Shown: piece by piece, positions 389 through 64,000 of the stretch | How positions within the stretch are numbered: position 1 is the first letter of the stretch | How the letters are laid out: each line of letters opens with the position of its first letter | Assembly (NCBI GenBank): GCA_020152595.1 | Contig: JAIGNY010002171.1 | Coordinates: forward strand, 3,392,001-3,456,000 | Source: Chiridota heheva | Taxonomy: Eukaryota; Echinodermata; Holothuroidea; Apodida; Chiridotidae | DNA: 64,000 bases | Reading direction: 5' to 3' | Made by a program: the position numbers and the translations under genes | The notes under the pieces: generated by a model | What the model saw: only the letters and a program-made list of their open reading frames with translations | Database searches by the model: none | What the model was told of the DNA's origin: nothing

Positions 389-550
389 CTCACCATACTG
401 CATAGGCCTACTGGCAATTACTGCCATACCCTACATTTGTTTCACTGCACTTTCAGACTCAAAGAGGATCAGAGAACGTTTCAAATTGTGCTTTTTATTT
501 GAAACCCTAATCAATTTGTTCCTTAAGTAGTTAAAATTCGAAACTACTAT

Positions 551-2885: not shown

Positions 2886-2984
2886 CCGTCATTACGACAG
2901 TGACACAAAAGAGCTCTTAAGCTCAGATTTACGATCTGGACTTCAGGAAGCACTGGCTTTCGTCCAGAATTCATCACAGTACAA

Positions 2985-42700: not shown

Positions 42701-45700
42701 TTAAAGCAAAAACAATTACCGTATTCGACGTAATAAGCTCCTGGAGCACTTACGAAAATAGAATTGTACCACTTCTTAGGCCTAAAGTTTCTTCCTGATG
42801 AGCGCCCATGCTCCGGCCGTGTACAGTGTGCTATTCAAACTGCATTGTGTGAACTGGATCTGTATACTACCACAATAAAACAAGAAACTAGAACATAGAC
42901 AACAAGGACCAGGTAGACCTCATCGTCCTTGATTTCTCGAAGGCTTTTGATAAAGTTCCACATGAAAGATTACTTCACAAAGCACAGTGCTACGAGATAA
43001 GAGGACCAACATTTCAATGGCTACGAGATGTCCTGACTGATAGCCAACAGCGTGTTCTCAAGAAGATTGAACCAGACATCCAGCTTCGGCCTTCTTTTAC
43101 CTAAATAATAATAATAATAATAAATGTTATTTAAATACGCCATTCACCAAAGTACCATGGCGCTTACAAAGTAAAATAAACACAAAATGAAAAATATCAA
43201 AATAAGTGGGTCTTTAAGAGTTTTTTTAATACTGTGGTGGATGGAGAAGTTCTCATGTGGGTGGGTAAAGTGTTCCAGGATCTGGATGCAAGTATTTCAA
43301 ATCTTTTGTCACTTGCACCATGTATATTGACTACACAATATTAATTCGCACCGAGAACGCATTTAGTTCACAGTACATTTATACTCCCAATTGGAGGACT
43401 GTACTTTAATGGAAGAAGAAGAATGACCACCACAAAAAACGTTGTGAGTGTCAGACACAAAATAAGTAAATTATGTAACAAAAATTATTTCAAATGAATT
43501 ATGTTATCATTAAAAAAATGTTGGGTGGGCGCTTATTAGAGCAGGGGCGCTTAATATGTCAAATACGATATTTCTGAGATGACAATGAGAGTTTGAACTT
43601 TTACTTTTAGATATATTCAAAATGCCTCTTGCTGCAAGTGTAAAGTTTTTGTCACCAAATTTAATTAAGAAGTATGTGTCATAAGTGTGTGATTTGGAGG
43701 AAGAGACTGCAAAAGTTTTGGGAGAATTAAGAAAGCTGGATTCATGGATATGAATTTCTGTATAATAACAAGAAAAAAGTATAAATAAAGAAAAAGGGCA
43801 CAATCAAGGGATGGATAATTGGGACCACCTCGGATTTTTCACCTTTGCAGATATTCTGAAGGTGACATGACCTATGTGGCTGAAATGGTAAATGCATGAG
43901 CACCATTGAAATAAAAATGCATACCGTCTTCAGTGATTCCGTTTGTTACTTTTGGAATATTTCCTAGGATGGGAGGGGGCCTTAAGATTGATATCAAATC
44001 TTTATCAGTACTGTAGGTCAGGGATCAACAAATGAACCAAAAATAAACTGCCAGCCGGGCAGGAGTATATAAATTTATGGTAGTCCTGAAAGTAAATGAA
44101 GGCTCAGTGAAATATTTTTGTATACAGTACATGCAATGGATTTTTGCTGAAAACAAAAGTTGTCCATTCGCGCATGTCAACTTATGTCATAGTTGCCCGG
44201 ATAAGATTTTTGGTTGTGCCCAGCAGCCGGATGCTTGATTTGTCGAACGCTGCTGTAGTTGTGCCTTCTTTTCCTGATTTATTTTCCGTGGTAGCAGCTA
44301 CATCAATTCCTATTCTGTTAATCATTTTGTAATTGTTATTTTGCAGCATATTTAGTCCATCCATTTTTATTTGATTTCTTTGTAGTGGCAAGTTGGACGT
44401 AAAGAAAGCAAACAACGTCTTTGGCCCGACTGAGTTTTTCCCTTTACTAGATGTGGTCTATACTTCCAATGCAACTCTTCCGCCAAAGTAAGACACCAAA
44501 AGTTGCAATTTTTATTAGTTTGACTATTCGAAGAATAGTAGAGCTACATGTATTCTACTACCCTCGGCGTTGGCGTCAGTGTCCAGTTAAAGTTTTGGTT
44601 AAAATTTTCATAACTTAAGTTACCAATGCTGTACATTCATGTGACTTAGGACAGGGTTAGAGGACATGGGTACTGATTAAATGATCATGATTGGAGGGTT
44701 GTGTGTACATACTAATTAGCTTATTTGTATAACAATGCAAATATTCATCAGGTTAAAGTTTTGCTTAAAGTTTATGGTTAAAATTTTCATAACTTATGAA
44801 TAGTGTACATTCATGTGACTTGGCATAGAATTAGAGGAAGTGGGTACTGTTCAAATGAGCATGATTGGGGGGTTGTGTGTGCATACTAATTAACTTGTTT
44901 GCATAACAATGAAAATATTTGTCAGGTTAAAGTTTTGGTTCAAGTTTTCATAACTTAAGTTATGAATGGTGTACATTCATGTAACTTGGCATAGGAGTAC
45001 TGTTCACGTGAGCATGATTAGGGTTGTGTGCATACTAATTAGCTTATTTGCATAACAAAATATTTCTATCTATGATATCTCCTAAATTAAAGTGGATCTG
45101 GGAATTTTGTTTGCACAAAGTATCATATATGTGAAGAGCATTGTCTACACTTAATGGTGAGGTAAAGTTTGCATATTAATTAGGTTATATGCATAACAAT
45201 AGACTTTCGTACAAAATGTTTAACATGAGCACATAGCTTAAGTTATGAATGGTGTCCATTCATGAAACTTGGTACAGGGGTAGAGGACATGGGTAGTATT
45301 CAAATAAGCATGATGGGGTTGTTGTGTATCCATACTAGTTAGCATTTTTGCATAACAATGAAAATATTTATATCTATGATATGTCTTACATTAAAATGGG
45401 AATAGGGATTTTGTTGACACAAATGATCATGTATGTTAAGAGTATTGTCTACACTCAATGGTGAGGATTAGTTTACATATTGATTGGGTTATTTGCATAA
45501 CAATAGACTTTTGTAAAAAATAATTAACATGAGATAATAACTTGGTTCAGTGGTAGAGTACATTTGTACTGTTCACTTGAGCATGATTGGGGGGTTGTGT
45601 GTGCATACTAATTAGCTTATTTGCATAGCAATGAAAATATTTGTATCTGTGGTATCTCTTGAATTACATGTAAAGTGGGTGTGGTGATTTTGTGTAAACA

Positions 45701-48700
45701 AATGATCTTACAGTATATGTGAAGAGCATTGTTTACACTTAATGGTGAGGTATAGTGTGCATATTGATTTGGTTATTTGCATAAAAATAAACGTTGCTGC
45801 AAAATGTTTGACCTGAGATCAAAAATATATGGCAGGCGAGACTTTTCACGTTTCTAGTTTTGTTATGATATTGACATTCCTGACATGAATAGGAATCAAA
45901 ATGTTTGTTTTGCCATGAATAAAGTTCTAAACAAGTAAAAGTGTTCTCCCTTCTAAAGAATTTTAGATTATGGGTTTGGGAAATATAAACAATAAGTGGA
46001 ATGTGGGGAATTCATGTGGGACAGGGTGGAATTGTATGTAGGGCAGGGTGGGGTGGGATGTTGGTCAGGATGTGTTAGCATGTTGGACAGAGTGGGTTGG
46101 CATGTAGAGCAGGGTTGGTTGGCATGTGGAACAGGATGGGTTGGCATGTGGAACAGGGGGGTTGACATGTGGGACAGGGTGAAATGGCATGTGGTGGGGT
46201 ATCAGCTGGATTTTAGTTGTGATGGCATGTGGGTCATGCAAGTGGTGGAATGACATTCAGTATCTGGTTTTAAGGGGCGATTGCATGGAGTATAGGGGTG
46301 GGATGACATTTGGGACAGGTTGGGATGGAATGTGGGACAGTCTGGAATATGCATTATTAGCAGTGAGGGGATTTGTATCATTTCCAATGTCTAGTGTGTC
46401 ATACGTTAAGCAATATTGTTTCACATAATTTTGCTTTAAGTTTATTGTACATTTTTCTGTTGCTTGACTTTGCTTGACACACATATTTTCTTAAATTGGA
46501 AGTTATATTACAATCCAGGATGTAGTTCTTGGATGTGTAGAGGTTGGGGGAGAGTAGGGGGCCTAATGACATTCTTTCATTGACATTGGCAAGTTAGGGC
46601 CTTTCCTTTCTTTGTTGTTCAATTGATAGAACCAAAAGAGGTGTCATGGTTATAGAGATTGCTAGCTTTGACATGTTGTCTGAACTACTGCATGGCTGAG
46701 GTAACCTTGAACTTTTTTCTTTTTTTTTGTCTTAAAATTTCTCTATGAAAACTCAAAGATAGTTTGAAGCTTGTAGTAAAGTGTCGTTAAAATTAACAAA
46801 GCAAATACAAATGTAAGTACATATTTCAAAGCTCAAGTAAATTGAAATCATCTGCCCCTGCTACCCTATTTCTGCATATACTTCCCTCAATAAGCCCATT
46901 CTCTCTACTAGCTTTGAATAGTCGAGCATGCTGTCCTTCCGATAGTTCTTGTTAGTTATTTATTATCTGTCATTATAATTTTCTTGTAATATCATACATA
47001 AAGAATATACAATGTGAGTACAATGAACCTTGATTGAAAAAAGAAAACTTTTATCATTCTCTGAAATAAGCTTGAGTGTGGTTAGAAAATTGATGTGTTT
47101 CTGGATTAATATAAAGCATAATCTTTTATGTTTTTATTACACGCTGACAGATCCAAACAATTTTGGTTGGGGTCACAAAAGTTGAGTAAGGTTTGATACA
47201 AATTTTGGTTGGCATTCTAGCAAGTTTGAATGAAAATAAGCACTCTTTGTGAGAATCACTTTTTTGTTGTGTTGTACTTTTTAGACAAGCGTTTGAACAG
47301 ATATTTTGAATAATAGAGATAGATATGTATACTTAGGTAAGACCTAAAAGTGGCACCAATTTCTTGCTGACAATAATGACCATTTTATTTTGAGATTGAA
47401 GCTGAGCACAAAAAATAGTTTAATTAGATCAAGATAATTCTGGGATAGATATTGATAAACCCACTCTAGAAGAAATCAGTGATGCTATAAAAAGCCTTAA
47501 GAATGGAAAGACACCTGGCATTGACTTAATCACCAGTGAAATACTTAAAGCAGACGTAGGCTTTTCTACCAGAGAAATCAAGAAGCTGTTGCTCCAGGTA
47601 TCGAACCAGAAGCGAACACCTAGGAAATGATACAAGGGCTTAATCATTAAGATACCCAAAAAAGGAGACCTAAAGGAGTGTAAGAACTGAAGAGAGATAG
47701 CATTGCTACCCATTATCAGCAAGATACTTGGAAAGATCATCATTGACAGAATAAGGAAGGACATTGACTGCAGACTACGTAATGAGAAAGCTGAATTTCG
47801 CTCTGGTAGAGTCACAACTGTACAAATTTTAATTTTAAGAAAAATTGATAAACAAGTCAGTGAGTGGCAAGCGCCCCATACATTAACTTCATTGATTTCA
47901 TAAAAGCCTTCGATTCCACTCATAGAGAGAGCCTGTGGAAAGTTATGAAAAGCTATGGGATTCCAAACAAACTAATATATATGGTCTGAGCTTTATACAA
48001 TGATTTTCCATGTGCTGTGATGGAAATGAGACGTCTGACTGGTTTAACATCAAGACAGGTGAAACGTATGCGATATGTCTGGCATTCTCTTTCTTTTAGC
48101 AATTGACTGGATGATGAGAAGGACTACCGAGCTAGGCGTCACAGGCATTAGATGAAAACTGACAACACAACTAGAAGATATGGATTTCGCTGATAATGTA
48201 AGCTTCGTTGTCAACCACAAGGCAACAAATTCAAACAAAGACCAACACACTTTAAAAATGAAGCAGCAAAAATAGGCCTTACTGTCAACGTGCAGAAATG
48301 CAAAGCCATGAGGATCAACGCCAAATCTCAGGAAGATATTTCTCTAAATGAGCAGAGAATGGTTAATGTTGATAGCTTTGTGTATCTGGGTGCTACCATT
48401 ACAAAAAAAGGAGGTGGTATGAGGGACCTCAACTACAGGATTGGAAAAGCTAGCGGAGCTTTCCATAAGCTAAAGAAGATCTGGAGTTTAAATGGAGTTA
48501 CAATGAAGACCAAGATTAGACTCTACAAAGCCTTGGTCCTACCAGTCCTAATATGTGGCTGTGAAACCTGGAAGATGAACAAAGAGGATGACAAGAAAAT
48601 TGATGTTCCAGACTCGTTGCCTATGAAGAATGTTTAAGATCAGCTGGGAGGATAGAATTACCAACAAAGAATTATGACCTACAAAAAACGAGTAATGAAG

Positions 48701-51700: not shown

Positions 51701-53424
51701 TTCAAAGAGTGACAATAAACCTAACCATGTACAAACGTAAACAATAAAACATTTTATTGCCACATTATGCGTGTTTATGATTTTGTGTTTTGTATATGTA
51801 TTATAGCTCTCTTTGACATGAATTTTGACTTGTAGAATACACCTTCTTACTATGCGTTGTGACATACTTTTTTGCCGTGGAAATGTCAATTTTGCGAGAG
51901 CTTTGCCCCCTGGACCCCTACCGGAGTTTCGCCCTGAACTCCACCAAGGCCCTTAAGCGGGCGCATGGACCCCACGCAGACAAGTTGAGCGCTTTGTGCT
52001 TGATTTGTGTTTTGTATAGGGTGTATTATAGCTCTCTTTCAAATTTGACTTGTGTAATACACCTTACTATGATTTATGCCATACATTTTTGCCCTTGTCA
52101 ATTTTGCGAGAGCTTTGCCCCCTGGACCCCTTCCGCGGCTTCGCCTCTGGACCCCACCAGGGGCCCTTGAGCGGGCCCCTGGACCCCACGCCCACAAGAC
52201 AAAGTGACACCTCAACTACGCCACTAAATATTTTGTCGGTTCAATTCAATGCTTCGCTCCCCCTCAATATGAAAATCCTAGCTACGCCACTGTTCAAGAC
52301 CATTGATTAGCCAAGCAGAGTAATTACAAATTAGGCTATGATGTAGGAGTAGGATGCGACTGCACCGAATCTAAAATTGCGCCATTTGAGACCTAGGATG
52401 ATGTACATTTATTGTGCTTAATAAGGGTGTTATTATATGGAAAGTGTTGATCATCATAGTCTGGAATGTATTCGAGACCAACTATTAGCCAATCAGAGAG
52501 CTAGAAACTTAATTTACTATTTATAAACGATATTTAATGAGTTCCGTAAAAGCTGTTTGAGCAGTTGTGTGTTTGTCAGGTGCTTCAAGGAAATTTGAAT
52601 GTGTCATCTCAAATTCACTATTTGTCTCCACAGGCCATTGCCATTGGTCCAGATCCACACACAAGTTTGCGGAATTTCTTTCCTTCGTTGCTGGAGAGAA
52701 CAACCAAGAGCTGTCCAGAGCCTTTGAAAACTGAGGTAAAAAATATTATTGAATTCCTTTTCGATAATGTTCTATGTTCAAACAAAATGATGGAGAAAAT
52801 AAGAGCTTGGAAGTACAATTTATGTGGTTAATTTTGTTAACATAATGTTACTTGAGAACGATGAAAGAAATCAAAAGGTAGATTGAAATTCTCAAAAGAG
52901 TTTATTTATATTTTTTCATTAAAGAGATAAATTCAATGTTTATTTTTCAGTTTCACTCTAAATGATTGTTTTCCTAAGTCTAATTGCAACCTTATATCTC
53001 GTAATGCAATTTCTGTTTCCTAACATGAGCTGTTAGGATGAAAAAGGAAGATTACTTCACAGTACACTCAAGAAAGTTATACAAATGATTTGTGCTCTGG
53101 TAATACTCTTGTGTGAAACCAGTACTCTGAGGGTACTCAATGTAACACCATGATGATACTCCGTGTGACATACATCAGTTTTGTATACCAAACACACAGT
53201 GACACCATTTTTTGAAGATGCTCAGTATGCGTGTAGCACATCTAGTGATACTTAATGTTGATTATTATTTCTTTGTTTTGCAGCTTTTGAAGTCATTGAT
53301 TCATTGCCTGGCAACTGACGTTGTTTGCTTTAGTGTGTGGCGTCAGATGTATGACTCACACATGGCACAATCAGGGGTCCTCCTCAACTACATGAAGGAT
53401 AATTGGTTTAAGATAAATGCTACT
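15609..53424 (+). CDS. TMEM214: TMEM214-like gene, 5' part, 11 coding exons visible
   Basis: Eleven exons with GT donors and AG acceptors join in frame to 417 codons: 15609-15726, 29425-29684, 34104-34188, 35730-35861, 40558-40640, 41083-41188, 42528-42609, 44386-44487, 49812-49851, 52634-52735 and 53284-53424. The product matches the TMEM214 family along its length. Landmarks are KWETV near the N-terminus, a lysine-rich stretch, FASLEDAL, WLGDIVGFLN, FFDYCL, FGPTEFFPLLD, FFPSLL and VWRQMY. Vertebrate TMEM214 is an ER membrane protein, reported to anchor procaspase-4 in ER-stress apoptosis, of roughly 690 residues with membrane helices in its C-terminal third. That part is absent here, so the gene continues beyond 64000. 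The identification is from remembered family sequence, not a search. Confidence 0.92.
15727..16309. other. Intron 1, proximal part, nothing recognised
   Basis: AT-rich intron sequence with two TAGGCCTA-type palindromes. No supported feature. Confidence 0.5.
16310..17015 (-). mobile_element. Family A LINE 3' end, copy A2, interrupted
   Basis: 16330-16605 aligns with the 3' end of copy A1 (3000-3290), including the C-terminal codons SANPHVTHGNSLKL on the - strand. 16910-17010 aligns with the thumb region of A1 (about 3520-3630). The 300 bp between them (16606-16909), pyrimidine-rich and unrecognised, replace the sequence present in A1. This could be an insertion or a gene-conversion patch. Confidence 0.82.
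17018..20108 (-). mobile_element. L2-like LINE, 3' part (RT), - strand, interrupted by two insertions
   Basis: On the - strand the pieces run from the ORF2 linker (NAVEAVHCYNDGVKRIVNKHAP, 20100-19867) through the RT domain (LKKPSLDPNNFNNYRPISNL, 19723-19292; LDMSAAFDTIDHNVFF, 19304-18984; FGIPQGSALGPILFSMY, 18430-18209) to the C-terminal RLWNNLPIHLRTTCSFYSFK (17684-17424). The 3' end has the GCGC..TATAAAT tail and an ATT microsatellite (17019-17045) typical of L2. The catalytic YADD is mutated (YAAI). A short LINE tail sits at 18461-18614, and the 5' part of the element lies beyond the nested + strand L2, from 23690 on. Confidence 0.86.
18450..18625 (+). mobile_element. 154-bp LINE 3'-tail insertion with 11-bp target duplication
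   Basis: 18461-18614 carries the same 3' UTR as the LINE at 12018-13047 (ACGCTCGGTTGGCG, AAGGATTTTTGCCGACTTA, terminal TTCAGA repeat). It is flanked by AGAATACGATT at 18450-18460 and 18615-18625. This is an extremely 5'-truncated retrotransposition into the - strand L2 element. Confidence 0.88.
20675..21832 (+). CDS. LINE (L2-like) AP endonuclease domain ORF, 385 codons
   Basis: The longest non-repeat ORF of the window. It shows the APE-type endonuclease motifs in order: VNVRSICNK (N of motif I, ~27-35), TETWL (E of motif II, ~54), YRPP (~127), SGDFNIH (~165), the LDLMLV segment (~208) and ISDHCFV (SDH motif, ~230). The protein nicks target DNA to prime reverse transcription. Downstream basic residues (RSRRKAEAKWLRSRSDEDH) belong to the linker before RT. 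The frame then ends in a shift, and RT coding continues in another frame from about 21840. The start codon is uncertain. Most likely a decayed transposon ORF, intact only in this segment. Confidence 0.85.
   Translation: MTNLITIKTLPFYRNMNINKLTYSVVNVRSICNKITMFLDYLVSAQIDLCVVTETWLTDAHDDIRADIIEAGFTLDDNPRPDRRGGGLAVLHTKSIKSKRLKSGQLPSFEFSEWQIKFIDFSILVVAIYRPPYSTVHPVSLNTFLDEFRLYAEGICATSNHLIISGDFNIHTNVGANAHASSFQDIVASLGLKQVVKCQTHVSGNSLDLMLVRNEDNMVISEPRKGFYISDHCFVLCSLSQDKPGRKTKVIEHGHFKAIDNDQLSSLLSTFTQECLALTTIVYLANFYNAGLTKILDVVALIQSKIVTIREKVPWFDDSLKSLKRSRRKAEAKWLRSRSDEDHCSFKALRIKYNQRLHQARSEIISAKILSVVAININFIGLSTY
21833..23600 (+). pseudogene. LINE (L2-like) reverse transcriptase, frameshifted
   Basis: Continues the endonuclease ORF through at least five frames. 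The RT motifs are largely preserved: KKPSFEPIFSNYRPVSNLPL, AYRQFHSTETA, SVPQGSVVGP, the intact catalytic box GYADDHSFY (in 22471-22830), LLGVSLDTNLNM, SHLDYCNAVFAGMP and LKELHWLPI. The 'AFDTVHH' motif near 22455 is broken by a frameshift. Confidence 0.85.
23690..25075 (-). mobile_element. L2-like LINE, 5' part (endonuclease), - strand
   Basis: Two - strand frames carry an APE endonuclease: 24459-24064 (FNPRSVRNKSCNFELVLDE, CETWLGHDDD, GGGIALLYK, AVIYRPDP) and 23975-23694 (NGYSLDVIITS, FSDHRLI, ending with KKDITALSD-type linker). They resume at 20108 as the linker of the same element, so the + strand L2 (20110-23692) inserted into this copy. The stretch from 24470 to 25075 is probably its 5' region. 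I recognise no protein there. Confidence 0.82.
25082..26466. mobile_element. Family A LINE with inverted 5' segment (twin-priming-like)
   Basis: 25082-25505 matches family A on the - strand (equivalent to about 3645-4085 of copy A1). 25508-26466 matches it on the + strand from just before the FADD box to the 3' end with a TTATG pentamer tail. The + part reads KFADDTKLYRIVDDARDSS, then ARANRMLGLIRRNCYFLGRE and LFRPHLEYAIQVWSPF, with stops later. The two halves overlap in element coordinates by about 270 bp, so arms 25082-25354 and 25508-25785 form a large inverted repeat around a ~150-bp spacer. No target duplication was identified. Confidence 0.85.
26467..27099. other. Intron 1 spacer, nothing recognised
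   Basis: No supported feature. Confidence 0.45.
27100..27962 (-). pseudogene. CR1/Jockey-type LINE RT fragment, - strand
   Basis: The 27962-27654 frame reads AILDFRPFDTVLHRKLQFKL and LLFLCHINDLPSQ, i.e. RT domains 3-4 with the S-K-A of SKAFDTV lost. Further along, frameshifted, HHALQADLDKW, CYILSSTP and the KTIQRQAA..FIT-like block are found (27620-27150). The catalytic FADD box is not readable. This appears to be the same broad type as the LINE at 12018. Confidence 0.78.
27963..28429. other. Intron 1 spacer, nothing recognised
   Basis: No supported feature. Confidence 0.4.
28430..28800 (+). pseudogene. LINE RT thumb fragment, + strand
   Basis: After one frameshift the + strand reads LGIYIDENISWN, then RNVGIISRVWHLLNNKNVRN and LYFTMIYPYIFYAYSIWA, the region that follows the catalytic box in CR1-type RTs. 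It is AT-rich and truncated on both sides. Confidence 0.75.
28801..29424. other. Intron 1, distal end
   Basis: No repeat or ORF recognised. The last 20 bases form the acceptor of exon 2 (TTCTTTAATAG). Confidence 0.5.
29425..29684 (+). CDS. TMEM214: TMEM214 exon 2 (codons 40-126)
   Basis: Acceptor TTTAATAG|CACCCC, donor TCG|GTATGA. Entry phase 1 completes a serine codon with exon 1, exit phase 0. It encodes an acidic/aromatic segment (LQEDETQFSAAF), a lysine-rich linker (QQLKKKKDNSGKKKLEKF) and FASLEDALKNISIDEVK, which corresponds to the conserved 'RFRSLEEALKAL' stretch of vertebrate TMEM214. Confidence 0.9.
29744..30828 (+). mobile_element. ~1 kb dispersed element, copy B
   Basis: Full-length counterpart of 551-1530 in the opposite orientation, in intron 2. 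The ends TATAGAGCTTTTCA and (reverse) CATAGACCTTTTCA form an imperfect ~14-bp terminal inverted repeat. The interior has no supported ORF. Flanks do not show a convincing target duplication. Sequence divergence between A and B suggests old insertions. Confidence 0.7.
30829..31478. other. Intron 2 spacer, nothing recognised
   Basis: No supported feature. Confidence 0.4.
31479..33507 (+). pseudogene. LINE RT gene with internal 54-bp tandem expansion
   Basis: The 5' frame reads QRTINKHGHKIVSDYFKDI, FWGFLKSIRNP and LSDHFGRFISTVNKD, an RT N-terminal region. It then passes straight into IPPVWKHAKTSPVPKIGKP, missing the usual 'APGPDGI' segment. After 13 repeat units (31752-32453) the frame exits as VNDYRPIDI. 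Frameshifted pieces follow: FLDFSSVFNTVFPN, IGVPQGGPLSALLFTIYTDE, the intact catalytic KYADDTT (~32935), then a 161-codon frame (33023-33508) with LLLNPRKSKEIVF and the thumb. The type is CR1-like in the broad sense. Not functional. Confidence 0.85.
31752..32453 (+). repeat. 13 x 54-bp minisatellite made from an RT motif
   Basis: GTTTGGAAGCATGCC-type unit starts fall exactly every 54 bp from 31752 to 32400, and the next base (32454) begins VNDYRPI. Each unit encodes VWKHAKTSPVPKIGKPAS with substitutions but no length change. Units at about 31968 and 32184 have W changed to a stop, and one near 32316 has a TAA. Confidence 0.96.
33508..34103. other. Intron 2, distal end
   Basis: AT-rich, no feature recognised. 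Ends in the exon 3 acceptor (TTATCCTCAG). Confidence 0.5.
34104..34188 (+). CDS. TMEM214: TMEM214 exon 3 (codons 127-154 plus 1 nt)
   Basis: Acceptor TCCTCAG|CTTTGG, donor CCACCAG|GTAAAT. Phase 0 in, phase 1 out. Encodes LWLGDIVGFLNRKLEVKENE, corresponding to 'IWLKDLASYLNYKL' of the family. Confidence 0.9.
34189..35729. other. Intron 3
   Basis: 1.5 kb of AT-rich intron. I recognise no repeat or RNA gene. A reading frame starting at 35597 merely reads through intron sequence into exon 4. Confidence 0.6.
35730..35861 (+). CDS. TMEM214: TMEM214 exon 4 (codons 155-198)
   Basis: Acceptor CACTATGCAG|ATTTCC, donor AACAAAG|GTATGT. Phase 1 in and out. Encodes DFPCCRLDSGLKDFLSN, then FKMLKEFFDYCLREMLSDLN, matching the conserved 'LELFFDHCLFTMLQELDK' segment. 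Confidence 0.92.
36060..36322 (-). mobile_element. tRNA-derived SINE-like repeat
   Basis: On the - strand, starting near 36322, GTGGCTAAGCAGTTGA resembles a tRNA A box, and about 40 bp on AGGTTTGATTCC (36272-36261) resembles a B box. It is followed by CCTTGAGCAAGACAC, a block I have seen in dispersed SINE-like repeats of several animals. No acceptor-stem structure of a true tRNA is present. The boundaries and family name are uncertain. Confidence 0.62.
36323..37397. other. Intron 4 spacer, nothing recognised
   Basis: No supported feature before the TTAA at 37394-37397. Confidence 0.45.
38215..38610 (-). pseudogene. Unrecognised exon-like coding in the piggyBac-like element
   Basis: The - strand carries a proline- and lysine-rich stretch (MLEEDEPPATPQPKRKRDRP, SSRPSAAVAPPSPLKENP), one TAG stop, then a charged segment (ARLQEIQRSKVIPAADKDYH, VESDRDRHEVFGNWLWED). 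It ends at a consensus splice donor, AAA|GTAAGT, reading down from 38215. GC content is well above the surroundings. I do not recognise the protein. It could be an N-terminal part of a degenerate transposase or a captured gene. Confidence 0.5.
38525..38675. repeat. Short tandem duplication with CGCATAACATGTTAT repeats
   Basis: GGCGGCTCGTCCTCTTCAAG occurs twice (near 38513 and 38583), each followed by CATACGCATAAC and one to four copies of a 15-bp unit with the palindromic core ATAACATGTTAT, and both closing with TTATTGTGGTTTCTA. A local duplication has enlarged the coding segment on the - strand (MRMLEEDEPP twice). Confidence 0.85.
39307..39438 (-). pseudogene. Acidic exon in the piggyBac-like element, 44 codons
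   Basis: On the - strand, acceptor ATGTTTTCTTCAG|AATAATG and donor AAGTTG|GTGAGT bound exactly 132 bases (phase 0/0). They encode a highly acidic peptide including TSDEEDVPELDQIEEEEN and ending DSDLFQITKL. Acidic N-termini are common in piggyBac transposases, which makes a transposase N-terminal exon plausible, but no catalytic domain follows in the element. Confidence 0.55.
40110..40557. other. Intron 4, distal end
   Basis: No repeat recognised. Ends in the exon 5 acceptor. Confidence 0.5.
40558..40640 (+). CDS. TMEM214: TMEM214 exon 5 (codons 199-226)
   Basis: Acceptor TTACCCATCAG|GCCAAT, donor AAGATC|GTAAGT. Phase 1 in, 0 out. Encodes GQSVYAYRIYIQLLIWKNPQ and ends ITKSFKI, matching the family's 'GYRICIQAIL' segment. 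Too short to have been found as an ORF; placed by phase and similarity. Confidence 0.88.
40641..41082. other. Intron 5, nothing recognised
   Basis: AT-rich, no supported feature. Confidence 0.5.
41083..41188 (+). CDS. TMEM214: TMEM214 exon 6 (codons 227-261)
   Basis: Acceptor TTTCTGTGTAG|TTTTTG, donor CTTCAAG|GTAGGT. Phase 0 in, 1 out. Encodes FLELAKKKQNDRAGCLAVLW, then TNQAGLKNSVTGLQ, matching 'FLELL...CLTIMWALGQAGF'. Confidence 0.92.
41310..42130. repeat. ~24-bp minisatellite in intron 6
   Basis: About 30 diverged copies of a unit near GATGCCATGTGGGACATAGG plus GTGG, mostly 24 bp but ranging from 18 to 30 bp. Open frames on both strands (up to 170 codons on the - strand) arise from the repeat. 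A non-repeat island lies around 41800-41850. Related in sequence to the 22-bp array at 45990. Confidence 0.9.
42131..42527. other. Intron 6, distal end
   Basis: No supported feature. Ends in the exon 7 acceptor (TTCCTGTCCATTAG). Confidence 0.5.
42528..42609 (+). CDS. TMEM214: TMEM214 exon 7 (codons 262-288)
   Basis: Acceptor GTCCATTAG|TGTGGA, donor TATTCAG|GTAACA. Phase 1 in, 2 out. Encodes VWSQVMLPMLSHKIIAPYVL, then ATLERIF, matching 'VWLGIMLPVLGIKSLSPFAI'. Confidence 0.9.
42893..43085 (+). pseudogene. LINE RT palm fragment
   Basis: One + frame reads DNKDQVDLIVLDFSKAFDKV, PHERLLHKAQCYEIRGPTFQ, then WLRDVLTDSQQRVLKK and a stop. This is RT domain 3 of a CR1/Jockey-type element with the D of the first catalytic position intact. 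Truncated on both sides, in intron 7. Confidence 0.82.
43104..43330 (-). mobile_element. L2-like LINE or SINE 3' end, - strand
   Basis: An AAT microsatellite (43105-43126) followed by sequence whose reverse complement contains GCGCCATGGTACTTTGGTG and GGCGTATTTAAATAAC, the arrangement of L2-type 3' ends (GCGC...TATAAAT then ATT repeats) seen at 17018 and 23640. Confidence 0.65.
43331..44385. other. Intron 7, distal part, nothing recognised
   Basis: No supported feature apart from the exon 8 acceptor. Confidence 0.45.
44386..44487 (+). CDS. TMEM214: TMEM214 exon 8 (codons 289-322)
   Basis: Acceptor TTTCTTTGTAG|TGGCAA, donor CCGCCAAA|GTAAGA. Phase 2 in and out. Encodes GKLDVKKANNVFGPTEFFPL, then LDVVYTSNATLPP. 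FGPTEFFPLLD is the most family-like motif of the gene (vertebrate 'IGPKDFFPLLD'). Confidence 0.94.
44530..45830. repeat. Composite ~140-175-bp tandem repeat in intron 8
   Basis: A conserved ACTAATTAGCTTATTTGCAT anchor or variant ends near 44735, 44909, 45054, 45193, 45357, 45498, 45628 and 45787, so the spacing is 130-174 bp. The later half alternates two half-unit types (one with CATAACAATGAAAATATTT, one with CATAACAATAGACTTT), giving a ~300-bp higher-order period. No coding. Confidence 0.85.
45990..46345. repeat. ~22-bp minisatellite in intron 8
   Basis: About 14 copies of TTGGCATGTGGAACAGGATG plus GG with variants. Repeats decay after 46200. Both strands have short open frames caused by the repeat. 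Confidence 0.9.
46346..47424. other. Intron 8 spacer, nothing recognised
   Basis: No supported feature. Confidence 0.45.
47425..48965 (+). pseudogene. RTE-like LINE reverse transcriptase, inactive
   Basis: Frames on the + strand read IDKPTLEEISDAIKSLKNGK, TPGIDLITSEIL, IPKKGDLKECKN, LLPIISKILGKIIIDRIRKD, EFRSGRVTTVQILILRKI, then IDWMMRRTTELGVTGI and MDFADNVSFV, a 115-codon frame with VYLGATITKKGG and LYKALVLPVLICGCETWK (48290-48637), and the C-terminal RRGRPKAMWRRTV block (48777-48962). This domain order is that of RTE-type LINEs. The second catalytic aspartate is replaced (FADN), and several stops occur. The endonuclease is missing. Confidence 0.85.
48966..49811. other. Intron 8, distal part, nothing recognised
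   Basis: No supported feature before the exon 9 acceptor. Confidence 0.45.
49812..49851 (+). CDS. TMEM214: TMEM214 exon 9 (codons 323-336), 40-nt microexon
   Basis: Acceptor CTTCCATGTAG|CTTGCA, donor CTAAAG|GTAAGG. Phase 2 in, 0 out. Encodes NLQKQLQYRYTKLK, equivalent to 'LQEQLCQLYPRLK'. The exon is very small, but phase, splice sites and sequence all agree. Confidence 0.88.
50109..50215. repeat. 107-bp imperfect hairpin
   Basis: GGGGATAAAGGCGAGGGTGG at 50109 and its inverse near 50196-50215 (reverse GGGGATAAAAGTGAGGGTGG) continue inward through CAAATG..A. The arms are about 36 bp with roughly 80% pairing and a ~30-nt loop. No target duplication was obvious. It could be a small foldback MITE or a transcribed hairpin. 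Confidence 0.75.
50216..51286. other. Intron 9 spacer
   Basis: No gene recognised. A short direct repeat (ACTCATGAGAGTCGTGA twice) occurs at about 51088-51121. Confidence 0.5.
51287..52300 (-). mobile_element. hAT-like non-autonomous element, copy 2, with 8-bp target duplication
   Basis: TTCAAGAC occurs at 51287-51294 and again at 52293-52300, immediately outside the termini CATGGCGTAACC (left, one G lost) and GTAGCGT-type right end read in reverse as CAGTGGCGTAGCTAGG. An 8-bp duplication and CAGTGGCGTA-like termini fit the hAT superfamily. The 998-bp interior has no transposase. It carries the internal 212-bp-spaced duplication (TTTGCGAGAG at 51891 and 52103), the GA tract and the GGCCC-rich hairpin (52157-52182) shared with copy 1 at 6760. 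Confidence 0.88.
52301..52633. other. Intron 9, distal end
   Basis: No supported feature. Ends in the exon 10 acceptor (TTGTCTCCACAG). Confidence 0.5.
52634..52735 (+). CDS. TMEM214: TMEM214 exon 10 (codons 337-370)
   Basis: Acceptor GTCTCCACAG|GCCATT, donor ACTGAG|GTAAAA. Phase 0 in and out. Encodes AIAIGPDPHTSLRNFFPSLL, then ERTTKSCPEPLKTE, matching 'FGAKPDSTLHTYFPSFLSRATPSCP'. Confidence 0.94.
52736..53283. other. Intron 10, nothing recognised
   Basis: No supported feature. Confidence 0.5.
53284..53424 (+). CDS. TMEM214: TMEM214 exon 11 (codons 371-417), last in window
   Basis: Acceptor TTTGTTTTGCAG|CTTTTG, donor GCTACT|GTAAGT. Phase 0 in and out. Encodes LLKSLIHCLATDVVCFSVWR, QMYDSHMAQSGVLLNYMKDN, WFKINAT, matching 'CLTVDPLSASVWRQLYPKHL'. 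The donor and the missing C-terminal third indicate that more exons follow beyond the minisatellite. Confidence 0.93.
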
Positions 53425-53457
53425 GTAAGTTTTTTTTTATATCTCAATGTGAAATAG

Positions 53458-53605
53458 TTTGTACTACTTTTAGACACTTCATGTGTTTTTTATACTTTAA
53501 TTTGCTTTATTGTAGGACTAGTGTTATTTTGCTGTTTTTTTGTAATTTAAATTGTAAAGCTCATTGAGACCGCTAGCATAATGTGCTATATAACAGTATT
53601 TGTAT
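53458..53605 (+). mobile_element. L2-type 3' end fragment
   Basis: AAAGCTCATTGAGACCGCTA followed by GCATAATGTGCTATATAACA and a degenerate TTATT tail resembles the 3' end of L2-like LINEs and their SINE partners. Short and diverged. Confidence 0.55.
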
Positions 53606-54059
53606 TATTCATTTATATCTTGTTTAAAAAGTTTCATAAATGCCATATGTAAATTTCATAATTGTTTATGTGGGGACACGTCCTTTTCCTGCAGTGCTAG
53701 CGTACACCTTTTATGTAAATCTGAAGAGTATGTATACGGATTAGAATAGATTTCTTTTGAGTATTGAATTTTGATTTCCTTGTCAGTGACTGAAAATATT
53801 ATATTCTTAGTAAGGGGTAAGTCTAATCCATGTTATGAAACTTACCAAAGCGATCTTATAAGGAAAAAGGATTGCTGAGGAGAGGGCATTTTCTTGCCTT
53901 CTTTTAGAATTTCATTAGAAAAATAACTTGGCTCTTACATCAAGCTGCCTACCAACAGCCAAAGACTATGTGAGTGTTTATTCTCTCTCAGATAATGCTG
54001 TCAAAGAGATATACCAAGTGCAAAATTGGCCATTTTTGCATCCTTCCTGAAACACCATG
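53606..54059. other. Intron 11 before the array
   Basis: No supported feature. Confidence 0.5.
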
Positions 54060-57000
54060 TTATTAAGAGTTATTTTATCCATAATAAACATCTGGTTCTG
54101 AGTTATTTCATCCATGATAAACATTTGGTTCTAAGTTATTTCATCCATAATAAACATCCAGTTCTGAGTTATTTCATCCATGATAAACATTTGGTTCTGA
54201 GTTATTTCATACATGATAAACATCTGGTTCTGAGTTATTTCATCCATAATAAACATCTGGTTCTGAGTTATTTCATCCATGATAAACATCTGGTTCTGAG
54301 TTAGTTCATCCATGATAAACATTTGATTCTGAGTTATTTCATTCATGACAAACATCTGGTTCTGAGTTATTTCATTCATGATAAACATCCAGTTCTGAGT
54401 TATTTTATCCATGATAAACATCTGGTTCTAAGTTAGTTCATTCATGATAAACATTTGGTACTGAGTTATTTCATCCATGATAAACATCTGGTTCTGAGTT
54501 ATTTTATCCATGATAAACATCTGGTTCTGAGTTATTTCATACATGATAAACATCCGGTTCTGAGTTATTCGCACATGATAAACATCTGGTTCTGAGTTAT
54601 TTTATCCATGATAAACATCCGGTTCTGAGTTATTTCATCCATGATAAACATTTGGTTCTGAGTTATTTCATCCATGATAAACATCTGGTTCTGAGTTATT
54701 ACATCCATGATAAACATCCGGTTCTGAGTTATTTCATCCATGATAAACATTTGGTTCTGAGTTATTTCATACATAATATACATCTGGTTCTGAGTTATTT
54801 CATCCATGATAAACATCTGGTTCTGAGTTAGTTCATCCATGATAAACATTTGGTTCTGAGTTATTTCATTCATGACAAACATCTGGTTCTGAGTTATTTC
54901 ATTCATGATAAACATCCAGTTCTGAGTTATTTTATCCATGATAAACATCTGGTTCTGAGTTATTTCATTCATGATAAACATTTGGTACTGAGTTATTTCA
55001 TCCATGATAAACATCTGGTTCTGAGTTATTTTATCCATGATAAACATCTGGTTCTGAGTTATTTCATACATGATAAACATCTGGTTCTGAGTTATTACAT
55101 CCATGATAAACATCTGGTTCTGAGTTATTTCATCCATGATAAACATCGGGTTCTGAGTTATTTCATCCATGATAAACATCGGGTTCTGAGTTATTTCATT
55201 CATGATAAACATTTGGTTCTGAGTTATTTCATCCATGATAAACCTTCTGTTCTGAGTTATTTCATCCATGATAAACATCGGGTTCTGAGTTATTTCATCC
55301 ATTATAAACATCCGGTTCTGAGTTATTTCATCCATGATAAACCTTCTGTTCTGAGTTATTTCATCCATGATAAACATCGGGTTCTGAGTTATTTCATCCA
55401 TGATAAACATCGGGTTCTGAGTTATTTCATTCATGATAAACATTTGGTTCTGAGTTATTTCATCCATGATAAACATCGGGTTCTGAGTTATTTCATTCAT
55501 GATAAACATCGATTCTGAGTTATTTCATCCATGATAAACATCTGCTTCTGAGATATTTCATCCATGATAAACATCTGGTTCTGAGTTATTTCATCTATTA
55601 TAAACATCTGGTTCTGAGTTATTTTATCCATGATAAACATCCGGTTCTGAGTTATTTCATTCATGATAAACATCGGGTTCTGAGTTATTTCATCTATTAT
55701 ATACATCCGCTTCTGGGTTTTTTCATCTATGATAAACATCCCGGTTCTGAGTTATTTCATCCATGATAAACATCTGCTTCTGAGATATTTCATCCATGAT
55801 AAACATCTGGTTCTGAGTTATTTCATCTATTATAAACATCTGGTTCTGAGTTATTTCATCCATGATAAACATCCGGTTCTGAGTTATTTCATTCATGATA
55901 AACATCAGGTTCTGAGTTATTTCATCTATTATATACATCCGCTTCTGGGTTTTTTCATCTATGATAAACATCCGGTTCTGAGTTATTTCATCCATGTTAA
56001 ACATCCGGTTCTGAGTTATTTTATCCATGATAAACATTTGGTTCTGAGTTATTTTATTCATGATAAACATTTGGTTTTGAGTTATTTCGTCCATGATAAA
56101 CATCCGGTTCTGAGTTATTTCATCCATGATAAACATTTGGTTCTGAGTTATTTCATCCATGATAAACATCTGGTTCTGAGTTATTTCATCCATGATAAAC
56201 ATCTGGTTCTGAGTTAATTCATCTATTATAAACATCCGGTTCTGAGTTATTTCATCCATGATAAACATTTGGTTCTGAGTTATTTCATCCATGATAAACA
56301 TCTGGTTCTGAGTTATTTCATTCATGATAAACATTTGGTTCTGAGTTATTTCATCCATGATAAACATCTGGTTCTGAGTTATTTCATCCATGATAAACAT
56401 TTGGTTCTGAGTTATTTCATCCATGATAAACATTTGGTTCTGAGTTATTTCATCCATGATAAACATCCGGTTCTGAGTTATTTCATCCATGATAAACCTT
56501 CTGTTCTGAGTTATTTCATCCATGATAAACATTTGGTTCTGAGTTATTTCATCCATGATAAACATCTGGTTCTAAGTTATTTCATCCATGATAAACATCG
56601 GGTTCTGAGTTATTTCATCCATGATAAACATCGGGTTCTGAGTTATTTCATTCATGATAAACATTTGGTTCTGAGTTATTTCATCCATGATAAACATCGG
56701 GTTCTGAGTTATTTCATTCATGATAAACATCGATTCTGAGTTATTTCATCCATGATAAACATCTGCTTCTGAGATATTTCATCCATGATAAACATCTGGT
56801 TCTGAGTTATTTCATCTATTATAAACATCTGGTTCTGAGTTATTTCATCCATGATAAACATCCGGTTCTGAGTTATTTCATTCATGATAAACATCGGGTT
56901 CTGAGTTATTTCATCTATATATACATCCGGTTCTGGTTTTTTTCATCATGATAAACATCCGGTTCTGAGTTATTTCATCCATGATAAACATCTGCTTCTG

Positions 57001-60000
57001 AGATATTTCATCCATGATAAACATCTGGTTCTGAGTTATTTCATCTATTATAAACATCGGGTTCTGAGTTATTTCATCCATGATAAACATCGGGTTCTGA
57101 GTTATTTCATTCATGATAAACATTTGGTTCTGAGTTATTTCATCCATGATAAACCTTCTGTTCTGAGTTATTTCATCCATGATAAACATCGGGTTCTGAG
57201 TTATTTCATCCATTATAAACATCCGGTTCTGAGTTATTTCATCCATGATAAACCTTCTGTTCTGAGTTATTTCATCCATGATAAACATCGGGTTCTGAGT
57301 TATTTCATCCATGATAAACATCCGGTTCTGAGTTATTTCATTCATGATAAACATCGGGTTCTGAGTTATTTCATCTATTATATACATCCGCTTCTGGGTT
57401 TTTTCATCTATGATAAACATCCGGTTCTGAGTTATTTCATCCATGTTAAACATCCGGTTCTGAGTTATTTCATCCATGATAAACATTTGGTTCTGAGTTA
57501 TTTCATCCATGATAAACATCCGGTTCTGAGTTATTTCATCCATGATAAACCTTCTGTTCTGAGTTATTTCATCCATGATAAACATTTGGTTCTGAGTTAT
57601 TTCATCCATGATAAACATCTGGTTCTAAGTTATTTCATCCATGATAAACATCGGGTTCTGAGTTATTTCATCCATGATAAACATCCGGTTCTGAGTTATT
57701 TCATCCATGATAAACATCCGGTTCTGAGTTATTTTATCCATGATAAACATCCGGTTCTGAGTTATTTCATTCATGATAAACATCCGGTTCTGAGTTATTT
57801 TATCCATGATAAACATCCGGTTCTGAGTTATTTCATTCATGATAAACATTTGGTTTTGAGTTATTTCGTCCATGATAAACATCGGGTTCTGAGTTATTTC
57901 ATCAATGATAAACATCCGGTTCTGACTTATTTCATCCATGATAAACATCCGGTTCTGAGTTATTTCATCTATTTTAAACATCCGGTTCTGAGTTATTTCA
58001 TCTATTTTAAACATCCGGTTCTGAGTTATTTCATCCATGATAAACATCCGGTTCTGAGTTATTTCATCTATTTTAAAAATCCGGTTCTGAGTTATTTCAT
58101 CTATTTTAAACATCCGGTTCTGAGTTATTTTATTCATGATAAACATCCGGTTCTGAGTTATATCATTCATGATAAACATCCGGTTCTGAGTAATTTCATC
58201 CATGATAAACATCTAGTTCTGAGATATTTCATCCATGATAAACATCCGGTTCTGAGTTATTCATCCATGATAAAACCTCCGGTTCTAAGTTAGTTCATTC
58301 ATGATAAACATCCGGTTCTGAGTTATTTCATCCATGATAAACATCCGGTTCTGAGTTATTTCATCCATGATAATCATCCGGTTCTTAGTTATTTCATCCA
58401 TGATAAACATCTAGTTCTGACTTATTTCATCCATGATAAACATCCGGTTCTGAGTTATTTCATCTATTTTAAACATCCGGTTCTGAGTTATTTCATCTAT
58501 TTTAAACATCCGGTTCTGAGTTATTTCATCCATGATAAACATCCGGTTCTGAGTTATTTCATCTATTTTAAACATCCGGTTCTGAGTTATTTCATCTATT
58601 TTAAACATCCGGTTCTGAGTTATTTCATTCATGATAAACATCCGGTTCTGAGTTGTTTCATTCATGATAAACATCCGGTTCTGAGTTGTTTCATCCATGA
58701 TAAACATCGGGTTCTGAGTTATTTCATCCATGATAAACATCCGGTTCTGAGTTATTTTATCCATGATAAACATCCGGTTCTGAGTTATTTCATTCATGAT
58801 AAACATTTGGTTTTGAGTTATTTCGTCCATGATAAACATCTGGTTCTGAGTTATTTCATCCATGATAAACATCGGGTTCTGAGTTATTTCATCCATGATA
58901 AACATTTGGTTCTGAGTTATTTCATCCATGATAAACATCGGGTTCTGAGTTATTTCATTCATGATAAACATAAACATGGTTCTGAGTTATTTCATCCATG
59001 ATAAACATCTGGTTCTGAGTTATTTCATCCATGATAAACATCTGGTTCTGAGTTAATCTATTTTAAACATCCGGTTCTGAGTTATTTCATCCATGATAAA
59101 CATCTGGTTCTGAGTTATTTCATTCATGATAAACATCTGGTTCTGAGTTATTTCATCTATTATAAACATCCGGTTCTGAGTTATTTCATCCATGATAAAC
59201 ATCCTGGTTCTGAGTTATTTTTCCATTATAAACATCCGTTCTGAGTTATTTCATCCATGATAAACATCCGGTTCTGGTTCCTGATAAACCTTCTGTTTAG
59301 TTATTTCATCCATGATAAACCTTCTGTTCTGAGTTATTTCATCCATGATAAACATCCGTTCTGGTTCTGAGTTATTTCATCCATGATATCCATGTTCTGA
59401 GTTATTTCATCCATGATAAACATTTCATCGATTCTGAGTTATTTCATCCATGATAAACATCCGGTTCTGAGTTATTACATCCATGATAAACATCCGGTTC
59501 TGAGTTATTTCATCCATGATAAACATCCGGTTCTGAGTTATTTCATTCATGATAAACATCCGGTTCTGAGTTATTTCATCCATGATAAACCTTCTGTTCT
59601 GAGTTATTTCATCCATTATAAACATCCGGTTCTGAGTTATTTCATCCATGATAAACCTTCTGTTCTGAGTTATTTCATCCATGATAAACATCCGGTTCTG
59701 AGTTATTACATCCATGATAAACATCCGGTTCTGACTTATTTCATCCATGATAAACATCCGGTTCTGAGCTATTTCATCCATGATAAACCTCCGGTTCTGA
59801 GTTATTTCGTCCATGATAAACATCTGGTTCTGAGTTATTTCATCCATGATAAACATCCGGTTCTGAGTTATTTCATCCATGATAAACATCCGGTTCTGAG
59901 TTATTTTATCCATGATAAACATCCGGTTCTGAGTTATTTCATTCATGATAAACATCCGGTTCTGAGTTATTTTATCCATGATAAACATCGGGTTCTGAGT

Positions 60001-63000
60001 TATTTCATTCATGATAAACATCGGGTTCTGAGTTATTTCATTCATGATAAACATCGGGTTCTGAGTTATTTCATCCATGATAAACATTTGGTTCTGAGTT
60101 ATTTCATCCATGATAAACATCTGGTTCTGAGTTATTTCATCCATGATAAACATCTGGTTCTGAGTTATTTCATCTATTTTAAACATCCGGTTCTGAGTTA
60201 TTTCATCCATGATAAACATCTGGTTCTGAGTTATTTCATCCATGATAAACATCTGGTTCTGAGTTATTTCATCTATTATAAACATCCGGTTCTGAGTTAT
60301 TTCATCCATGATAAACATCCGGTTCTGAGTTATTCGCACATGATAAACATCCGGTTCTGAGTTATTTCATCCATGATAAACCTTCTGTTCTGAGTTATTT
60401 CATCCATGATAAACCTTCTGTTCTGAGTTATTTCATCCATGATAAACATCCGGTTCTGAGTTATTTCATCCATGATAAACCTTCTGTTCTGAGTTATTTC
60501 ATCCATGATAAACCTTCTGTTCTGAGTTATTTCATCCATGATAAACATCGATTCTGAGTTATTTCATCCATGATAAACATCCGGTTCTGAGTTATTACAT
60601 CCATGATAAACATCCGGTTCTGAGTTATTTCATCCATGATAAACATCCGGTCCTGAGTTTTTCGTACATGATAAACATCCGGTTCTGAGTTATTTCATTC
60701 ATGATAAACCTCCGGTTCTGAGTTATTCAATCCATGATAAACATCGGGTTCTGAGTTATTTCATCTATTTTAAACATCCGGTTCTGAGTTATTTTATCCA
60801 TGATAAACATCGGGTTCTGAGTTATTTTATCCATTATAAACATCCGGTTCTGAGTTATTTCATCCATGATAAACCTTCTGTTCTGAGTTATTTCATCCAT
60901 GATAAACATTTGGTTCTGAGTTAGTTCATTCATGATAAACATCCGGTTCTGAGTTATTTTATCCATGATAAACATCGGGTTCTGAGTTATTTTATCCATT
61001 ATAAACATGCGGTTCTGAGTTATTTCATCCATGATAAACATCCGGTTCTGAGTTATTTCATCCATGATAAACCTTCTGTTCTGAGTTATTTCATCCATAA
61101 TAAACATCCGGTTCTGAGTTATTTCATTCATGATAAACATCGGTTCTGAGTTATTTCATCCATGATAAACCTTCTGTTCTGAGTTATTTCATCCATTATA
61201 AACATCCGGTTCTGAGTTATTTCATCCATGATAAACCTTCTGTTCTGAGTTATTTCATCCATGATAAACATCCGGTTCTGAGTTATTTCATCCATGATAA
61301 ACTTCTGTTCTGAGTTATTTCATCCATTATAAACATCCGGTTCTGAGTTATTTCATCCATGATAAACCTTCTGTTCTGAGTTAATCCATGATAAACATCC
61401 GGTTCTGAGTTATTACATCCATGATAAACATCCGGTTCTGACTTATTTCATCCATGATAAACATCCGGTTCTGAGCTATTTCATTGATCTGAGTTATCCA
61501 TGATAAACATCTGGTTCTGAGTTATTTCATCCATGATAAACATCCGGTTCTGAGTTATTTTTCATCCATGATAAACATCCGGTTCTGAGTTATTTTATCC
61601 ATGATAAACATCCGGTTCTGAGTTATTTCATTCATGATAAACATCCGGTTCTGAGTTATTTTATCCATGATAAACATCCGGTTCTGAGTTATTTCATTCA
61701 TGATAAACATTTGGTTTTGAGTTATTTCGTCCATGATAAACATCGGGTTCTGAGTTATTTCATCAATGATAAACATCCGGTTCTGACTTATTTCATCCAT
61801 GATAAACATCCGGTTCTGAGTTATTTCATCCATGATAAACATCTGGTTCTGAGTTATTTCATCTATTTTAAACATCCGGTTCTGAGTTATTTCATCCATG
61901 ATAAACATCTGGTTCTGAGTTATTTCATCCATGATAAACATCTGGTTCTGAGTTATTTCATCTATTATAAACATCCGGTTCTGAGTTATTTCATCCATGA
62001 TAAACATCCGGTTCTGAGTTATTCGCACATGATAAACATCCGGTTCTGAGTTATTTCATCCATGATAAACCTTCTGTTCTGAGTTATTTCATCCATGATA
62101 AACCTTCTGTTCTGAGTTATTTCATCCATGATAAACATCCGGTTCTGAGTTATTTCATCCATGATAAACCTTCTGTTCTGAGTTATTTCATCCATGATAA
62201 ACCTTCTGTTCTGAGTTATTTCATCCATGATAAACATCGATTCTGAGTTATTTCATCCATGATAAACATCCGGTTCTGAGTTATTACATCCATGATAAAC
62301 ATCCGGTTCTGAGTTATTTCATCCATGATAAACATCCGGTCCTGAGTTTTTCGTACATGATAAACATCCGGTTCTGAGTTATTTCATTCATGATAAACCT
62401 CCGGTTCTGAGTTATTCAATCCATGATAAACATCGGGTTCTGAGTTATTTCATCTATTTTAAACATCCGGTTCTGAGTTATTTTATCCATGATAAACATC
62501 GGGTTCTGAGTTATTTTATCCATTATAAACATCCGGTTCTGAGTTATTTCATCCATGATAAACCTTCTGTTCTGAGTTATTTCATCCATGATAAACATTT
62601 GGTTCTGAGTTAGTTCATTCATGATAAACATCCGGTTCTGAGTTATTTTATCCATGATAAACATCGGGTTCTGAGTTATTTTATCCATTATAAACATGCG
62701 GTTCTGAGTTATTTCATCCATGATAAACATCCGGTTCTGAGTTATTTCATCCATGATAAACCTTCTGTTCTGAGTTATTTCATCCATAATAAACATCCGG
62801 TTCTGAGTTATTTCATTCATGATAAACATCCGGTTCTGAGTTATTTCATCCATGATAAACCTTCTGTTCTGAGTTATTTCATCCATTATAAACATCCGGT
62901 TCTGAGTTATTTCATCCATGATAAACCTTCTGTTCTGAGTTATTTCATCCATGATAAACATCCGGTTCTGAGTTATTAATCCATCCATGATAAACATCCG

Positions 63001-64000
63001 GTTCTGATCCATTATTTCATCCATGATAAACATCCGGTTCTGTTCTGAGTTATTTCATCCATGATAAAACATCCGGTTCTGAGTTATTTTATCCATGATA
63101 AACATCCGGTTCTGAATTTCATTCATGATAAACATCCGGTTCTGAGTTATTTTATCCATGATAAACATCGGGTTCTGAGTTACATAAACATTCTGGTTCT
63201 GAGTTATTTCATCCATGATAAACATTTGGTTCTGAGTTATTTCATCCATGATAAACCATGATAAACATCTGGTTCTGAGTTATGATAAACATCTGGTTCT
63301 GAGTTATTTCATCCATGATAAACATCCGGTTCTGAGTTATTTCATCCATGATAAACCTTCTGAGTTTTATTTCATCCATGATAAACATCTGTTCTGAGTT
63401 ATTTCATCCATGATAACTGAGTTATTTCATCCATGATAAACATCCGGTTCTGAGTTATTTCATTATCCATGATAAACATCCGGTTCTGAGTTATTTCATC
63501 CGGTTCTGAGTTATTTCATGATAAACATCCGGTTCTGAGTTATTTTATCATCATGAGTTATTTCATCTATTTTAAACATAAACATCCGGTTCGGTTCTGA
63601 GTTATTTTCTGAGTTATTATGATAAACATCTGAGTTATTTTATAAAAACATCGGTTCTGAGTTATTTTATTCATGATAAACATTTGGTTCTGAGTTATTT
63701 CATCCATGATAAACATTTGGTTCTGAGTTATTTCATCCATGATAAACATCCGGTTCTGAGTTATTTCATCCATGATAAACATCCGGTTCTGGTTCATGAT
63801 AAACATCCATTCATGGTTCTGAGTTATTTCATCCATGATAAACATCTGGTTCTGAGTTATTTCATCTATTTTAAACATCCGGTTCTGAGTTATTTCATCC
63901 ATAATAAACATTTGGTTCTGAGTTATTTCATCCATGATAAACATCTGGTTCTGAGTTATTTCATCCATGATAAACATCTGGTTCTGAGTTATTTCATCCA
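54060..64000. repeat. 33-bp minisatellite array, ~10 kb, about 300 copies, runs off the window
   Basis: Tandem 33-bp units with core ATCCATGATAAACATC followed by a variable tetranucleotide (CCGG, CTGG, TTGG or CGGG, or CTTCTG type) and TTCTGAGTTATTT. The unit has no stop in one frame per strand, so it translates as VLSYFIHDKHP on + and MFIMDEITQNR on -, giving ORFs up to 389 codons that I consider artefacts. Higher-order duplications exist: about 1.1 kb at 60150-61285 recurs 1689-1690 bp further on; a block at 57724-57963 recurs at 61590-61823; a block near 54391 recurs 527 bp later. Units become irregular (truncated or fused) at 59030-59420, 61380-61500 and 62970-63660. Inferred to lie in TMEM214 intron 11. 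Confidence 0.97.

Follow-up and report, generated by a model that had tools for sequence, protein, structure and literature searches.

Minisatellites are arrays of head-to-tail units of about 10-100 bp, and satellite DNA with higher-order repeats is characterized by block duplication, a younger interior and a decayed edge. Among intronic arrays, the 30-bp VNTR of CACNA1C (TRACT) is described as 3-30+ kb long, with many unit variants that differ by single bases (PMC13131567). In the account given there, some alleles carry as many as 26 identical units in perfect tracts, through which growth is thought to run, and the authors refer in their discussion to recombination that duplicates blocks (Moya et al. 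2025, as cited in PMC13131567). In fibroblasts and testis, long CACNA1C alleles are reported to go with reduced expression (PMC13131567), and the length of the intronic VNTR of ABCA7 is reported to correlate with exon 19 skipping (PMC5954066).

The locus considered here lies at the end of a 64,000-nucleotide stretch of Chiridota heheva DNA, which was analysed as a whole (hereafter the window). Tandem Repeats Finder and wrap-around alignment place a 33-bp tandem array at positions 54067-64000 of the forward strand, still open at the window end; since that end cuts the array, 9.9 kb is a minimum for its length. We hold with good confidence that it is a large non-coding minisatellite within an intron of TMEM214, copied in blocks by unequal exchange or conversion and neutral apart from its length. 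The 33-bp unit (consensus GAGTTATTTCATCCATGATAAACATCCGGTTCT) and the 305 rows, including a partial row at each end, place the array among minisatellites and agree with the sequence-only reading, which had put about 300 copies in the last 10 kb. That reading had also noted long stretches in perfect register: row length is exactly 33 in 259 of 305 rows, and the longest such run comprises 60 units (56967-58946). The alignment left 258 of the 305 rows free of indels, and with indels counted there are 111 unit types, 70 of them singletons. Tandem Repeats Finder gave period-33 rows at 54067-61484, 61496-63501 and 63646-64000, and rows with periods of 66 and 99 spanning 54067-64000. A 22-base core of the unit, with up to three mismatches permitted, matches 279 times in the window, where 0.02 matches would be expected; all of the 200 matches listed, in position order to 60954, fall within the array, and among these 200 no copy lies outside it. 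One exact unit pattern each was absent from viral and prokaryote collections, a result of little weight for animal sequence, and 20-21-base strings of the unit matched no paper in the literature collection searched.

Table 1. Window positions of the TMEM214 features, duplicated blocks and irregular islands.
Feature	Position	Strand	Remarks
TMEM214 exon	53284-53424 (141 nt)	+	Upstream of array; Pfam PF10151; splice sites read in sequence
ORF holding TMEM214 exon	29403-29690	+	PF10151 profile 40-132, E 7.1e-10 and 1.4e-12
ORF possibly holding TMEM214 exon	35585-35923	+	Profile 153-210, E 2e-4, 20.4 bits, below the cut-off of 27
Most similar large block pair, copy 1	59871-61286	+	11 mismatches and one 1-bp gap relative to 61560-62976
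Most similar large block pair, copy 2	61560-62976	+	Off-register junction at each end (61560, 62977)
Older block	54574-55697	+	93.7% like 55795-56918, offset 1221; ungapped self-comparison
Island 1 of off-register junctions	58970-59432	+	Jump decomposition
Island 2 of off-register junctions	61378-61560	+	Between both copies of the most similar block; jump decomposition
Island 3 of off-register junctions	62970-63820	+	After the second block copy; jump decomposition

The tandem-repeat decomposition proposed in the sequence-only reading resolved the array into 33-bp units and multi-unit block copies. The longest repeated string comprises 30 units, against 2-3 in 20 shuffles, which bears out the nested duplications and the reuse of variant strings as blocks described in that reading. 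In the most similar pair, 59871-61141 and 61560-62830 are 99.1% identical without gaps, and an exact repeat of 1019 bp starts at 60123. The input to the gapped alignment of this pair was cut at 59700 and 61400, so that the left end was set by the cut, and 59871-61286 was kept as the first copy. The mismatches of this pair are confined to 133 bp, a clustering matched in 0 of 20000 random placements, and this suggests conversion rather than point mutation. Other block pairs show 3-7% divergence at offsets of 495, 527, 1221, 1911 and 3861, and exact repeats of at least 150 bp occur at offsets from 495 to 3861. The blocks recur at many offsets, not as the one regular multi-unit block of a higher-order repeat; pointing towards a higher-order register are a weak excess of identical unit pairs at lag 3 (27 vs. 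a mean of 10.0 and a maximum of 21 in 500 shuffles) and the best Tandem Repeats Finder score on the array, that of the 99-bp period (14629). At lag 52 there are 46 identical unit pairs, against a shuffle mean of 8.4 and a maximum of 18 (500 shuffles); such counts and p values overstate the case, given the common history of the units and the overlap among some of the six pairs of blocks compared.

Neighbouring units show little of this likeness. Identical neighbour pairs are in modest excess (20 vs. a shuffle mean of 10.1, a number reached in 7 of 2000 shuffles), and indel-free neighbours are barely more alike than any two units (2.78 vs. 3.04 differences on average). The longest run of identical neighbouring units is two and the longest exact 33-bp periodicity 98 bp, so the long identical-unit runs of a TRACT-like expansion through perfect tracts were not found in the array; shuffled unit orders had a maximum run of 2 in 1032 of 2000 cases and of 3 or more in 968. 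Since neighbours are hardly more alike than other units, runs do not exceed two and pairs at lag 52 are in large excess, many-unit copying seems to be the dominant mode of array growth. The variant strings allow the order of the duplications to be read.

Variation between units is concentrated at few positions, as had been noticed earlier, most of it being located in eight unit columns (27, 26, 13, 17, 28, 10, 24, and 14). The variable tetranucleotide, which holds the sole CpG of the consensus unit, reads CCGG in 126 of the 289 rows that have no gap at this place, CTGG in 51, TTGG in 32, CGGG in 32, TCTG in 28 and otherwise in 20. Among six chosen block pairs, some of them overlapping, the two CpG columns account for 38 of 150 mismatches, against 9.1 if these were uniform; by column, 31 of the 150 fall at column 27, 18 at column 26, beside the CpG of CCGG, and 16 at column 13. 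Non-CpG columns vary too, so CpG decay would be only part of the cause. The observed/expected ratio of CpG is 0.68 in the array vs. 0.44 in the rest of the window, where that of TpG+CpA is 1.25; a CpG depletion that is stronger outside the array would be a pattern as in methylated DNA. CpG-bearing units, counted with omission of rows that have a gap in the tetranucleotide, are rare over the first kilobase (4 of 31), rise to 27 of 59 over the following two and to 123 of 174 at 57067-63000, and number 14 of 25 beyond. A CpG-poor edge and a CpG-rich inside would result if the edge is old and the interior was copied recently; an edge poor in CpG would also follow from an ancestral unit with CTGG.

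A decomposition model permitting jumps finds 60 junctions in the array, 23 of one base and 37 larger. All 37 larger junctions lie inside the three islands of Table 1, a figure that is descriptive since the bounds were set after the junctions had been seen, and the islands also take in 7 of the 23 one-base indels. As many as 25 junctions fall within 700 bp, against at most 15 in 500 uniform trials. Mean microhomology, evaluated for 33 of the 60 junctions with shifts of 3 to 30, is 1.09 vs. 0.68 (P 0.015); the share of junctions with at least three bases is not raised (6.1% vs. 5.6%), and this signal is therefore weak. Both blocks joined off register and local assembly faults fit the islands.

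Misassembly, in a repeat unspanned by reads, is a rather unlikely source of the most similar block pair or of the irregular islands, and would be compatible with a minisatellite grown by blocks. The 1019-bp exact repeat could be a false duplication, and the crowding of junctions resembles false duplication or faulty consensus. However, 55511 and 56732, equivalent sites in two block copies of 93.7% identity, carry the same 1-bp deletion, which is what inheritance of a variant would give, and the older blocks, diverged by 3-7%, would be hard for an assembler to create. The 1-bp deletions common to 60335/62024, 60550/62239 and 60660/62349 decide nothing, because they lie inside the exact repeat and an assembler would copy them too.

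The presence of a TMEM214 exon upstream of the array bears on its location in the gene. This exon is preceded by the acceptor TTTTGCAG and followed by the donor GTAAGT at 53425, and the Pfam family PF10151 (TMEM214) matches 53281-53427 of the forward strand over profile positions 374-422 of 660 (E 6.6e-14 and 2.8e-11 in two scans). The scans for TMEM214 covered 28000-54100 in the three forward frames. The weaker of the two further matches in Table 1 was absent from the long-frame scans covering that ORF, and the ORF at 52550-52831, which gave no match in a Pfam search, may hold the exon preceding the one next to the array, as the human TMEM214 protein would suggest. In these scans no match ahead of the array covers profile positions 1-39, 133-152, and 211-373, which indicates that the scans miss exons. 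Between the last exon and the array there is no further TMEM214 match. The array starts 642 bp past the splice donor, and the 633 nt available at 53428-54060 fall short of the 714 nt needed by the remaining 238 profile positions; we infer that an intact TMEM214 gene must continue beyond the array. Given the donor ahead of the array and a space in front of it too short to hold the remainder of the gene, the array very probably lies in an intron of TMEM214, as the sequence-only reading had it; the upstream exon and donor are present on this strand, and exons beyond the array would lie on the downstream side, outside the window.

The window region is rich in tandem repeats. Further minisatellites are found at 9224-9665, 41362-42101, 46013-46194, and 1-381, with units of 44, 24, 22, and 21 bp among the periods reported, and two-copy tandem duplications lie at 14674-15304 (period 318 bp) and 44587-44948 (period 174 bp). 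A 54-bp repeat at 31750-32455, with 13 copies of 18 codons, overlaps long ORFs on both strands; it is located between two TMEM214 matches and just ahead of a reverse transcriptase match at about 32.5-33.1 kb. In the parts that were scanned, LINE-type pieces (reverse transcriptase or endonuclease) occur at 12.0, 20.7, 24.1 and 32.5-33.5 kb. A 387-aa ORF at 20669-21832 contains, according to Pfam, an endonuclease domain as in LINE-type elements, and the ORFs after it resemble, by eye, the reverse transcriptase part of that element. An origin of the array from an inverted-repeat element was rejected, as the sole flank within the window (53400-54200) contains one short palindrome.

On the transcript strand the array comprises no GTAAG, no GTRAG, one AGGT, 14 YAG and no polypyrimidine-YAG, together with six AATAAA. 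The suggestion that the array affects TMEM214 splicing is not borne out by these counts, which include no strong splice-like signals; an effect of length remains compatible with them. Structure at the RNA or hairpin level was rejected as well: a 132-nt stretch folded on both strands was less stable than shuffles (z 1.22 and 1.86), giving no unusual fold, and no Rfam family reached its gathering score in the window.

Forkhead factors recognize the motif RTAAACA and GATA factors WGATAR. The array contains 240 forkhead-like sites, all on one strand, and 249 GATA-like sites on the forward strand with one on the other. These nearly one-stranded clusters, the probable intron position shortly past a donor and the length effects described for the ABCA7 and CACNA1C VNTRs (PMC5954066, PMC13131567) speak for an array that acts on TMEM214 expression or splicing, either through its length or by clustering transcription factor sites. 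We nevertheless find such a role improbable, as the motifs of any unit recur in every copy, strong splice-like signals are absent and the forkhead core is not spared by rare changes: 5 of the 26 rare states of array units fall in it, against 5.5 expected, with no sign of constraint. In a more specific form, the array would be a regulatory element of variable length, with its some 240 same-strand forkhead-like sites titrating a factor or slowing the polymerase and TMEM214 output set by array length; this appears highly improbable. The array tells little on gene function before length variation and expression are measured.

The unit has one stop-free frame on each strand, giving 11-residue repeats as reported in the sequence-only reading, and the longest ORFs in the array are 462 aa (forward) and 319 aa (reverse), with neither frame spanning the whole array. 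An 11-codon unit repeats its own frame, so chance alone would leave most such units open on both strands, as it did 3851 of 5000 shuffled 33-mers. The codon-position analysis proposed earlier used 258 of the 305 units and 26 rare states, each present in at most 3 of these 258. In the forward frame 5 are synonymous, 19 nonsynonymous and 2 stops, against 4.3, 21.0, and 0.75 expected, and in the reverse frame 5, 20, and 1 against 4.1, 21.0, and 0.9; among these states neither frame has an excess of synonymous changes. Of 45 off-length rows, the partial first row counted among them, 35 shift the frame. Pfam searches with the two ORFs gave matches to five families, of which R-HINP1I, on the forward ORF, exceeds its cut-off (41.3 bits vs. 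25), over profile positions 70-131 of 208 only. The other four are unrelated and below their cut-offs, and all these matches are read as chance effects of repetitive sequence. A protein of 11-residue repeats encoded on one strand, which the open frames and the R-HINP1I match would favour, is barely credible, since openness by chance, the lack of synonymous excess and the frame shifts speak against coding on either strand and uphold the earlier non-coding reading.

The preferred explanation, a neutral intronic minisatellite copied in blocks, would work as follows. Unequal exchange or template switching would copy about 15 to 50 units at once, making the array grow and shrink, and conversion would shuffle variants among its units. 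The commonest variants may stem from decay of cytosines, in part at the unit's one CpG, and the 5' edge, copied less often, would have lost its CpGs. The array would be removed with the intron by splicing, its sequence being neutral apart from length.

With higher-order satellite DNA the array shares block duplication and a presumably younger interior and decayed edge, but its block copies stand at many different offsets, from 495 to 3861 among exact repeats of at least 150 bp, rather than with a single regular period. Like the VNTR described for ABCA7, it is a tandem repeat within an intron; there, a correlation of length with exon 19 skipping is known, whereas the 33-bp array is known from one sequence. 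The nearest described case that was found is the CACNA1C VNTR, as portrayed in PMC13131567, likewise an intronic array with units of about 30 bp and many single-base unit variants. The perfect tracts there reach 26 units, whereas runs do not exceed two here, and by the argument of that report the absence of such tracts would predict low present-day instability of the 33-bp array. Beside these systems, the array is a clear case of an intronic minisatellite that apparently grew by many-unit blocks, not by runs of identical units.
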